A stretch of 64,000 nt of DNA from Amantichitinum ursilacus. GTDB lineage: Bacteria > Pseudomonadota > Gammaproteobacteria > Burkholderiales > Chitinibacteraceae. Position 1 is the stretch's first letter, and each line of letters opens with the position of its first letter. Shown in pieces: positions 44,950 to 47,829 of the stretch. The DNA lies in assembly GCF_001294205.1 (NCBI RefSeq), contig NZ_LAQT01000001.1, positions 1-64,000 on the forward strand, given 5' to 3'. The position numbers and the translations under genes were made by a program. The notes beneath the pieces are model-generated. The model saw only the letters and a list, made by a program, of their open reading frames with translations. It did not search any database and was not told the origin of the DNA.

Positions 44950-45101
44950 AAAGAAAAAGCCCGCTTCAGAAGAAGCGGGCCCAAATATCCAACCAGACAA
45001 ACACGGAGATGACGCGCCTGCCTGCGCGTCGGAAACCATAGTGCGCCAACGTCGCTGTTTTGAGAGCCAGGTTGATGCCTGGGGACCGCGCCTGGGTAGC
45101 T
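44950..45101 (-). repeat. Terminator-bearing repeat, copy 1; possible small RNA read on the minus strand
   Basis: One of three near-copies. Read on the minus strand it contains a hairpin around CCCCAGGCATCAACCTGG, the perfect hairpin GACGCGCAGGCAGGCGCGTC, the single-stranded CATCTCCGTGTTTGTCTGG, then an intrinsic terminator: GCCCGCTTC / GAAGCGGGC followed by TTTTTC. No comparable T-run exists on the plus strand. Sequence between the structures is nearly identical in all three copies. The frame through it (MVSDAQAGASSPCLSGW) is present in each copy but I take this as a by-product. Confidence 0.75.
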
Positions 45102-45545
45102 GGCCGGGCGCGTTGGGCTGCGTACGTTTTAGCGATCTGATCGACCGAACGACTTTCTGCTCAAAATTGACCCAAAAACGCTGCGCCTTTCGTCTGCTGA
45201 TGGTCGGATGAACGTTCGTTTTTTCGCCCTGGAAGGTCGCGAAAGCCAGCCGAGATCAATAATCCGCATTTGCGAGACGCGTAAGCACAAAACGAGCCGT
45301 TGTGGTTTGACCGGGTCGGTGGCGGCGATCTGTGTGGCAACGCTATCATTGAGCCCAAATCCATTGCGTTCAATAGGTTATGGCACGGCCGCGTCGCAGC
45401 ATTCGTCGTGCCGGGCCAGGTGGTGGCCGTCTTTGTAGCGATGCGACAGCGCCCTCGCTGGCGCTAACCGCGTTTTTGCGGTCCTTCCTTTCCGGTATTT
45501 CAGTTTATTAATTACAAATAATTGCAGCAGCAGGAGCATCAATTC
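45102..45545. other. Intergenic region upstream of the orphan binding protein
   Basis: About 440 bp with no recognisable gene; short open frames on both strands show no family features. It contains the palindromic GAACGTTC at about 45209 and near its right end an AT-rich stretch (CAGTTTATTAATTACAAATAATTG) that may hold the promoter for the next gene. Confidence 0.6.
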
Positions 45546-46424
45546 GTGGGCATCAGCAAAACCGTAGCTTCCATTCTGGGTGTGGCTTTTTGCCTCGCCA
45601 CCGCCGCCAGCCAGGCCGATACGCTGGACCGGATTAAAACCAGTGGCGAAATCAAGATTGGTTATCGCAGTTCGTCGATGCCGCTGTCGTGGTCAGCCGA
45701 CGGCACACCGACCGGATTTATGGTGGCGCTGTGCGAAAAAATCGTGACGGAACAAATCAGCACCGCGCTGCATAAGCCCATCAAGATTACCTATGTGCCG
45801 GTGACGGTGCAGACGCGGTTTCAGTTGCTGGACCAGCAGGCCATCGATATGGAATGCGGTTCAACCACGGTGACGCTGGAACGGATGAAGCAGGTGGATT
45901 TTTCGCTGGCCACATATATCACCACATCGCGGCTGGTCAGTTTAAAGAAGACCGGCGCGCTGAATCTGTCGACCATGAATGGCCGCGTTCTGGCGGTGCA
46001 GACTGGGTCCAGCCATGCTGAGTTGATCTCGAAAATGCTGGGCGGCGCCAGATTGTTGCAGGTGCCTGATGCCGCGCGTGGCGTGGAAGCCGTGGCCAAT
46101 GGCAAAGCAGCGGCTTATGTCGATGCTGAAAACCTGATCCTGAGCGCCATAAAGGCCAACCATTTGCAGCCTGCGGATTTCACCATGGGCACGTCGTTAT
46201 CGGTGGAGCCGTTTGCCATCGTTACGCGCAAGGGCGATACCGGGCTGGAGAAGCTGATTGATCAGGGGCTGCGCAAGGCGTTCTCGCATTCGGAGGCCAC
46301 GGTGACCTTGCTGCAAGGCTATAGCACGCAAATGGGCGCGGACATTAATGCGTTGACGCGCGACGCTATCCGCAATCCGTCGCGCAGCCACGAATGCAGC
46401 ATGCTGGAAGCGGTGACCTGCTAA
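45546..46424 (+). CDS. Orphan amino-acid ABC-type substrate-binding protein (GTG start)
   Basis: A 292-residue SBP_bac_3 protein: leader GISKTVASILGVAFCLATAASQA, then DTLDRIKTSGEIKIGYRSSSMPLSW, GFMVALCEKIVTEQI, VQTRFQLLDQQAIDMECGSTTVTLERMKQVDFS. Similar to glutamate/aspartate-binding GltI. GTG 45546 has AGGAG with a 9-nt spacer, which decides it over the upstream TTG. No permease or ATPase is near, and a chemoreceptor gene lies 1.6 kb away, so a sensory role is possible. Confidence 0.85.
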   Translation: MGISKTVASILGVAFCLATAASQADTLDRIKTSGEIKIGYRSSSMPLSWSADGTPTGFMVALCEKIVTEQISTALHKPIKITYVPVTVQTRFQLLDQQAIDMECGSTTVTLERMKQVDFSLATYITTSRLVSLKKTGALNLSTMNGRVLAVQTGSSHAELISKMLGGARLLQVPDAARGVEAVANGKAAAYVDAENLILSAIKANHLQPADFTMGTSLSVEPFAIVTRKGDTGLEKLIDQGLRKAFSHSEATVTLLQGYSTQMGADINALTRDAIRNPSRSHECSMLEAVTC

Positions 46425-46438
46425 GCCGCGGCGGCGCC

Positions 46439-46600
46439 AAAGAAAAAGCCCGCTTCCAAAGAAGCGGGCCCAAGTAAATACAAGTTCCAACCAGACAAAC
46501 ACGGAGATGACGCGCCTGCCTGCGCGTCGGAAACCATAGTGCGCCGTTGTTGCTGATTTGTGAGCCAGGGCGACGCCTGGGGAGTATGCCTGGGTAGGCG
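46439..46600 (-). repeat. Terminator-bearing repeat, copy 2
   Basis: Same element as at 44950, with a 6-nt internal variant (AGTAAATACAAGTTCC). Minus-strand terminator: GCCCGCTTC TTTG GAAGCGGGC then TTTTTC. The GACGCGC..GCGCGTC hairpin and GGAGATGACG stretch are identical to copy 1. It lies between the convergent binding-protein and parvulin-like genes, where it could terminate the latter. Confidence 0.75.
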
Positions 46601-46620
46601 CGCTGCCCCGGTCGGCGCGC

Positions 46621-47556
46621 TTAGCTGAAGGAAAAGTCGCAGCCGCATTCGTCAGCGTTCATGCCCAGGTCCGGCCATCTGACATCCACCAAAGGTTGCC
46701 CCGGCGTGGGCGCGATCTTGATCACAGCGGCTTTACGTGTCGCTTCAAACGGATCGTAATTGCGCGATTTATCCTGATTTTCGAGACGCGCTTTCAGCTT
46801 GTCATGGATCTCGGCCAGTGGGGGCAGTGGCTCGGGGCCGAGACTGTTAAGTTTGACCACTTCCCAACCGCCCACGGTTTTGATGGGTGCCGATATTTCG
46901 CCCTTTTTAAGCGCCAGAACCGCCTTGGTGAAGGCCGGATCGTAATCCTGCATCTGCTGGAGCGTGACGCGGTCGGACTCATACGCCGGACGCATCGCTT
47001 TGGGCAGCAAGGGGTTGCCCTCTTCTCTGAAGCGCTCCGGATCGGCGCTCAATCTTTTATGAAATTGTTCGGCCAATGCGCTGCTGCTGAAGATAGCGCG
47101 TTGCACGCTGTAACTACGTTTGGCTTCATTTTGCATGAGCTCTTTTGCGTATAGCTCGGCGATCCGGGCTTCCGTCACCACCGGTTTTGCAGGCGGGATC
47201 AACGCGGCGGCGTACCAATAGGCGTCGTCCGTCGTCAGCAGCCGGCTGAGTGCGCCAAATTCAGGTAACTGGCTGATTGCGGTGGGCGCTTTAAGCAGCG
47301 TGTTCAGATATTGGCGATCCATGGTCATGCGGATCAGGCGTTTGAGACTGCCATTACGCGAGCAGGCAGCACGGGAAGAATTGGCGCTGCATTCGCCAAT
47401 AGCGACCCGGGCGCGCTGGATAATGGCGACATCGGATTCATCAATGCTATCGCCATTGACGATGGCCGCGGGCGCGGCAAGCGCCTGGCCACAAAGCAGG
47501 GCGGTGGATAAAAGCAGCGCGGATTTCAGCGGATTGAGGCGGTTGGACAGGGTCAT
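46621..47556 (-). CDS. Periplasmic parvulin-like peptidyl-prolyl isomerase homologue
   Basis: A 311-residue exported protein: leader SALLLSTALLCGQALA, AAIVNGDSIDESDVAI at the start as in SurA/PrsA-type proteins, and a parvulin-like domain from RSYSVQRAIFSSSALAEQF with ISAPIKTVGGWEVVKLNSLGPEPLPPLAEI. Several Cys pairs (GECSANSSRAACSRN, DECGCDF) are unusual and could form disulfides. A chaperone role in the periplasm is likely. Terminated probably by repeat copy 2. Confidence 0.78.
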   Translation of the reverse strand: MTLSNRLNPLKSALLLSTALLCGQALAAPAAIVNGDSIDESDVAIIQRARVAIGECSANSSRAACSRNGSLKRLIRMTMDRQYLNTLLKAPTAISQLPEFGALSRLLTTDDAYWYAAALIPPAKPVVTEARIAELYAKELMQNEAKRSYSVQRAIFSSSALAEQFHKRLSADPERFREEGNPLLPKAMRPAYESDRVTLQQMQDYDPAFTKAVLALKKGEISAPIKTVGGWEVVKLNSLGPEPLPPLAEIHDKLKARLENQDKSRNYDPFEATRKAAVIKIAPTPGQPLVDVRWPDLGMNADECGCDFSFS

Positions 47557-47673
47557 CGCAGGGCTCCACAAAGGAAAGGGAGCGTGCGACTATCGGCGCG
47601 GCCCTGCGCCTGCACTATAAGAATCTACTCAAAAAGCCGCTGCAGCCTGGCGATGGGCGCGCGCCCTACGTGC

Positions 47674-47829
47674 AAAGAAAAAAGCCCGCTTCCAGAAGAA
47701 GCGGGCCCAAATATCCAACCAGACAAACACGGAGATGACGCGCCTGCCTGCGCGTCGGAAACCATAGTGCGCTTTTCGCAATCGGTTGTGAGCCAGGACG
47801 ATGCCTGGGGAGCGCGCTTGGGAAGTGCG
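47674..47829 (-). repeat. Terminator-bearing repeat, copy 3
   Basis: Third copy of the element at 44950: terminator GCCCGCTTC TTCT GGAAGCGGGC then TTTTTTC on the minus strand, and identical CCAACCAGACAAACACGG and GACGCGCCTGCCTGCGCGTC stretches. It lies in a 500-bp gap upstream of a chemoreceptor gene, with no minus-strand gene directly upstream of it, so here it is not simply the terminator of a gene. Confidence 0.75.

Follow-up and report, generated by a model that had tools for sequence, protein, structure and literature searches.

Three repeated elements on the minus strand

The window analysed here is a 64-kb stretch of the Amantichitinum ursilacus genome in which three copies of a structured element lie on the minus strand (c1, 44951-45083; c2, 46440-46581; c3, 47676-47809), in the neighbourhood of genes for an SBP_bac_3 binding protein, a PPIC-type rotamase and an MCP. 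An earlier note, made from the DNA letters alone, had pointed to these copies as candidate sibling small RNAs (sRNAs), and both the position of the copies and the nature of the neighbours proved to be as it claimed. From dyad through terminator the element measures ~135-145 nt. It consists, in order, of an inverted repeat CCAGG-N6-CCTGG (the dyad, which the note called hairpin 1), 26 nt, the hexamer TATGGT, a 20-nt stem-loop, the sequence ATCTCCGTG, a short spacer and a strong terminator of 26-27 nt followed by a T run. The stem-loop (stem 1) is GACGCGC-AGGCAG-GCGCGTC in c1-c3, and the terminators contain 11 (c1), 11 (c2) and 12 (c3) pairs.

In c1 the dyad, a candidate operator, occupies 45067-45082 and is followed after 26 nt by a -10-like hexamer (TATGGT, 45035-45040), so named from position and resemblance only. 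The predicted sRNA of ~81 nt (44951-45031; 105.7 and 92.8 bits with the covariance models R1 and R2 described below) contains stem 1 (GACGCGC/GCGCGUC, 45011-45030), the anti-Shine-Dalgarno-like sequence motif AUCUCCGUG (45002-45010) and a predicted intrinsic terminator stem-loop (44957-44982) that precedes the T run. The corresponding minus-strand features of c2 are the candidate operator dyad at 46565-46580, the TATGGT hexamer at 46533-46538, a predicted sRNA of ~90 nt at 46440-46529 (R2, 93.2 bits), stem 1 at 46509-46528, the AUCUCCGUG motif at 46500-46508 and the predicted terminator at 46446-46471. Those of c3 are at 47793-47808, 47761-47766, 47676-47757 (~82 nt; R2, 88.8 bits), 47737-47756, 47728-47736 and 47682-47708, respectively. 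All sRNA ends given are predicted ones, and stem 1 is supported in each case by covariation over seven copies.

When up to three mismatches were permitted, CATCTCCGTGTTTGTC occurred three times in the window, each time exactly, against a mean of 0.49 in shuffled sequence, where three occurrences were never reached. The copies are identical across the block from GCGCAC-TATGGT to GGTTGGA, whereas just 8-14 of the 20 positions separating the dyad from this block, and 16-28 of the 50 positions upstream of the dyad, match among c1-c3. The invariant core and differing flanks described in the earlier note are thus real, but its 6-nt insert is not, as the insert before the terminator of c2 is 9 nt long. 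Within the window CCAGG-N6-CCTGG is found at three sites only, all in c1-c3. Both c1 and c2 have a third CCCAGG, 13 nt upstream, that is lost in c3 (window 45067-45083 and neighbours).

A family of seven copies in A. ursilacus

Copies were counted with two covariance models. R1 was built from c1-c3 and two further genome copies found by DNA search, with the dyad excluded and the stem one column out of register; R2, which has the correct stem register, was applied to the A. ursilacus genome and to an evenly sampled set of 399 genomes of the order, A. ursilacus included. The 42 other genomes of the family were searched with R1 only, under stricter filters. A genome-wide copy count and a covariance-model search had both been proposed in the earlier note, and they led to the same result: R2 detected seven clear copies (c1-c7; 60-93 bits, E values 1.6e-19 to 2.4e-11), and R1 retrieved the same seven. 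The next-best matches of R2 scored 24.2 and 23.5 bits, and the five that follow the copies (17.5-24.2 bits) are all without the dyad. The model R1 was dyad-free, yet c6 and c7, which it retrieved, each have the dyad in the phase seen in the other copies.

No true copy was found with R1 in the 42 other family genomes under these filters. The family set holds no second species of the genus, and 'lineage-specific' here means that the family's 10 other genera yielded no copy. A match in one relative (G005) consisted, as read by eye, of the terminator only and was rejected. In the order search there were two other matches: G347 (43.9 bits) is a double hairpin that has CUCC but no dyad, and G267 (32.8 bits) has neither. 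A pattern combining the dyad with CTCCGTG occurred in at least 116 stretches of named genomes; those listed come from very diverse prokaryotes and were taken as chance (best R1 score 17.4 bits among the 80 of 116 scored). Among the titles and abstract openings listed in a literature search there was no published description of the seven-copy family. It is very probable that the three repeats of the window belong to a set of seven sibling sRNA genes in A. ursilacus, a set not found in the close relatives searched.

Covariation and folding of the predicted RNA

In the alignment of the seven copies all 106 scorable cells form a standard pair, and five of the 16 pairs (two in stem 1 and three in the terminator) have changed on both sides. 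Of five measures, four had observed values that none of 500 shuffles reached; for the remaining one, the count of further pair types, 135 of the 500 did so. Sliding the alignment by 1-3 columns left only 23-59% paired. It should be emphasized that the alignment was fitted to the structure under test, so the covariation result leans in favour of that structure. Folded singly, six of the seven copies were better than all 200 of their own shuffles.

Several observations weigh against this structure. The fold of c6 is no better than its shuffles (z -0.88), the start of the c6 input having clipped its stem. In c1-c3 a competing 12-bp hairpin is 1.7-2.6 kcal/mol more stable than stem 1, and it buries the CGUG of CUCCGUG, the pairing stretch present in six copies (c6 has CUCUCUCC). 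Stem 1 nevertheless pairs in all seven copies, although it is not the minimum free energy (MFE) fold of c1-c3, and prefix folding suggests that in these copies it would form before the competing hairpin.

The dyad as a candidate operator

The half sites of the dyad are invariant in all seven copies, forming a perfect 5-bp inverted repeat with no compensatory change, unlike stem 1, which does change. From the end of the dyad to CUC the distance is 58, 58, 58, 57, 58, 57 and 58 nt in c1-c7, and from CUC to the terminator it is 27, 36, 27, 21, 16, 22 and 22 nt. A -10-like hexamer stands 26 bp past the dyad in c1-c5. A fixed phase with free intervening sequence is the pattern produced by protein-DNA contacts. 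Thus, because the half sites are invariant without covariation and the 57-58 nt phase is held across mostly differing sequence, we take CCAGG-N6-CCTGG to be, most likely, an operator in the DNA and not part of the RNA, in which case the sRNA would be ~80-90 nt long.

It could be argued, as in the earlier note, that the dyad is instead the first of three hairpins in a longer RNA of ~130-145 nt. Such an RNA would fit the perfect 5-bp repeat of every copy. It would also fit the long fold predicted for c3, where the dyad hairpin is present, a point that counts against an operator too; in the 134-nt fold of c1, however, this hairpin is absent. The stretch between dyad and -10 region is fixed in length but mostly unconserved in sequence, which such an RNA does not explain, any more than it explains the lack of compensatory change or the presence of the same dyad alone before unrelated genes (see below). 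We therefore regard the longer RNA as unlikely. The sibling sRNAs with an anti-Shine-Dalgarno CUCC that the note proposed are well supported by the seven copies, the covarying stem and terminator and a sub-threshold likeness to four known sRNA families, while its CCAGG hairpin is probably no part of the RNA and behaves as a promoter operator.

The operator reading has further difficulties of its own. The -10 hexamers at c6 (GATGCC) and c7 (TCTACG) are poor, and no promoter was detected at c1-c3 in a sigma-70 scan. Regarded as free-standing genes, c1-c3 have clear terminators, and their promoter is placed by phasing only. The A. ursilacus genome has 23 distinct sites of the extended pattern CCCAGGN6CCTGG (30 strand hits, versus 3 for the reversed control); these include six of the sRNA sites, c7 being left out as it has ACCAGG. 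The 42 relatives have 0 to 18 strand hits, but they too exceed the reversed-pattern control, and the dyad count may therefore in part be word bias.

The A. ursilacus sites differ from those of relatives in their relation to open reading frames (ORFs). The comparison set comprised all 37 distinct dyad sites in the four relatives richest in hits (G021, G002, G013 and G003). ORF cover here substitutes for a gene map, and the HD-GYP site was scored as covered through the upstream extension of its ORF. Seven of the 23 A. ursilacus sites lie within ORFs of at least 150 aa, as against 35 of 37 in the relatives (Fisher p 1.8e-7), and removal of the six sRNA sites leaves 6 of 17 versus 35 of 37 (p 7.6e-6). 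With a limit of 100 aa the numbers are 12 of 23 and 37 of 37, the former becoming 10 of 17 once the sRNA sites are removed.

LuxR-type, LysR-type and sigma-54 sites were considered as the identity of the dyad and rejected, as their consensus sequences did not fit. The dyad at G000:C34:15984-16001 (L058/L060) is terminator-like (CCCAGGAGCCCTCCTGGG followed by T8), and a dyad is thus not always an operator. Each half site reads CCWGG, a Dcm-type methylation site, and a methylation-sensitive operator is conceivable.

Genes associated with other dyad sites

Nine of the 17 non-sRNA dyad sites stand 43-366 bp before a Pfam-supported gene. The genes in question encode two SCPU proteins, a DUF3391/HD-GYP protein, FliL, GH114, DUF1501, two DUF1800 proteins and flagellin, and an extra site lacking the leading C precedes a PilZ gene. 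Of the remaining eight sites, one is in the coding sequence of the exosortase EpsH and two are in ORFs of 622 aa and 372 aa. One falls inside a terminator, another separates a PAS-domain protein from RlmJ, and a third is situated past the 3' end of an AraC-type gene. The last two precede a DUF3683 protein and an ORF with no Pfam match. At FliL, HD-GYP and DUF1501 a -10-like hexamer is found by eye 25-26 nt past the dyad, as in c1-c5. The sRNAs perhaps belong to a surface and motility regulon, a grouping made after looking at the genes.

At the SCPU pilin-like genes (L042:882-1457 and L056:1561-2124) and GH114 (L044:5-1432) the dyad is, by eye, 13-14 nt before a -10-like hexamer, a distance shorter by approximately one helical turn than that in the sRNA copies. 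This shorter spacing may represent a different mode of control.

Relationship to known sRNA families

At gathering thresholds Rfam gave no match in the window. The layout of the predicted RNA is that of the double-hairpin anti-Shine-Dalgarno sRNAs represented by RF02278, anti-hemB and SorX/SorY: a 5' stem, an unpaired CUCC stretch and a terminator hairpin, with the qualification that in c1-c3 the MFE fold pairs some of CUCC. Every reported score, however, is below the cut-offs of those families, and the copies are thus treated as a separate sibling family and not filed as RF02278 or anti-hemB. The window copies also score ~18-21 bits with Rfam families of other kinds (Trp leader, suhB), and sub-threshold Rfam scores alone therefore prove little.

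Against the RF02278 threshold of 50 bits, c1-c6 score 23.7, 22.3, 21.1, 25.3, 24.5 and 17.4 bits, c7 not being reported. RF02278 is the Betaproteobacteria toxic small RNA family, for which growth inhibition on expression in E. coli is a further criterion. The RF02278 RNAs of Burkholderia cenocepacia (ncS03, ncS05, ncS27 and ncS62) are likewise short, with two hairpins and a CU-rich segment that is complementary to ribosome sites, but carry CUCCUCC-AUCCUCC where six A. ursilacus copies have CUCCGUG. They are scattered, each Burkholderia genome having 3-5 homologues, an upstream motif is common to three of the four, and overexpression of ncS27 slowed planktonic growth (PMC5688073); their expression was confirmed by Northern blots (PMC4603805). 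Four RNAs of this type are reported from Herbaspirillum (PMC7011215).

A. ursilacus also has a separate, single-copy RF02278-like locus (G000:C26:77347-77412; L190:2348-2413, minus strand) that scores 48.7 bits against the cut-off of 50, carries CUCCUCC-AUCCUCC and has no dyad in the 110 nt upstream. RF02278 matches (E up to 0.001) are present in 37 of 43 family genomes, above the cut-off in eight. Among ten such loci compared in relatives the motif region is nearly identical in eight (the place was missed in L181 and L183), and the upstream regions vary.

The anti-hemB family (RF02837, cut-off 49.5) has a similar layout and scores 27.0, 21.5, 27.6, 27.0, 24.6, 15.6 and 21.8 bits on c1-c7, providing the best sub-threshold match of c1, c3 and c4 (27.0-27.6 bits). 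SorX (RF02784) aligns with c5 end to end at 35.1 bits, over stem, CUCC, GUUGGA and terminator, but the cut-offs of SorX and SorY (RF02651) are 46.6 and 111, and SorX is not listed for the other six copies. SorX and SorY are akin to the cuckoo/CcsR-type RNAs of alphaproteobacteria.

The Neisseria sRNAs NmsRA and NmsRB resemble the window copies as tandem siblings with UC-rich stretches aimed at Shine-Dalgarno regions (PMC5362039). They differ in having three stem-loops, and NmsRb (RcoF1/NgncR163 in Rfam) is not listed for the window copies; it matched only the RF02278-like locus (28.7 bits, cut-off 52). The Sinorhizobium RNA NfeR1 (alpha-r14) is an anti-Shine-Dalgarno sRNA with a conserved promoter dyad bound by the regulator LsrB (PMC10746234), but its motif is TGCA-N6-GCAT and it has three anti-Shine-Dalgarno motifs.

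Cis elements and dispersed repeats as alternatives

The copies could instead act in cis, as leaders or attenuators or as 3' untranslated region terminators of the preceding gene. The end of c1 is ~140 nt before a methyltransferase start and that of c3 ~105-120 nt before the rotamase start, both on the minus strand, while same-strand ORFs precede c2, c4 and c5. No single arrangement, however, suits all seven copies, each has its own dyad and its own terminator, and the identical block of c1-c3 spans stem 1 and the pairing stretch. The earlier note held that copies found only as 3' ends of genes would speak against free RNAs. At c1, c3 and c6 (three of seven) the next upstream Pfam-supported gene is oppositely oriented, and these copies are thus not gene 3' ends. 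A role in cis appears improbable. A dispersed repetitive extragenic palindrome (REP)-like repeat, spread by copying and with no regulatory role, would account for a multi-copy, lineage-restricted element with three copies within 2.9 kb, but is highly improbable given only seven copies, stems that change sequence yet keep pairing, differing c1-c3 flanks and promoter-like phasing.

Two features lie close to copies outside the window: a cspA thermoregulator (L032:555-944; RF01766, 99.8 bits, cut-off 78) <1 kb from c6, and a long inverted repeat (L033:1175-1226, AAAACGGGAGCGTTT...AAACGCTCCCGTTTT) ~220-270 bp upstream of the c7 dyad, perhaps a bidirectional terminator.

Proposed mode of action and significance

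We are reasonably confident that the copies are independent sibling sRNA genes of ~80-90 nt, each with an upstream operator dyad, that would act on Shine-Dalgarno sequences in trans. The computed support comprises the copies, the covariation, the fixed spacing, the avoidance of ORFs by the dyad and a gene for Hfq (PF17209, 102.7 bits, cut-off 27). Transcription of each sRNA would start just downstream of a promoter that has the 16-bp operator CCAGG-N6-CCTGG at its upstream edge. The operator would be bound by one putative transcription factor that also controls motility, cyclic di-GMP (c-di-GMP) and cell-surface genes. The RNA is predicted to have a short stem-loop at its 5' end and the terminator hairpin at the other, with CUCCGUG exposed between them. 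It probably works in trans with Hfq, CUCCGUG pairing with the Shine-Dalgarno regions (CACGGAG) of putative targets and lowering their translation.

In contrast with this proposal, 14 neighbouring or operator-linked genes paired with the motif not clearly better than shuffles did (best fraction 0.105), in a test that placed the HD-GYP region 3 nt off its ATG. A 15-mer search with up to two mismatches found 16 motif-complementary sites in the genome. Four are sRNA copies, and among the 12 others, judged by eye, only that in L200 (two mismatches), just upstream of an ATG, is a faint candidate.

A broader scheme, which we put forward tentatively, is that a single lineage-specific factor acting on CCAGG-N6-CCTGG switches the seven redundant anti-Shine-Dalgarno sRNAs together with genes of flagellar, c-di-GMP, pilin-like and exported functions. 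In that case the sRNAs would supply the repression in a switch from motile to attached life, recently built in this lineage atop an older single-copy RNA of the RF02278 type. This study adds a probable lineage-specific family of seven copies to the little-understood double-hairpin anti-Shine-Dalgarno sRNAs. The candidate operator would tie these sRNAs to named genes, such that the role of such RNAs may be tested by finding one DNA-binding protein.

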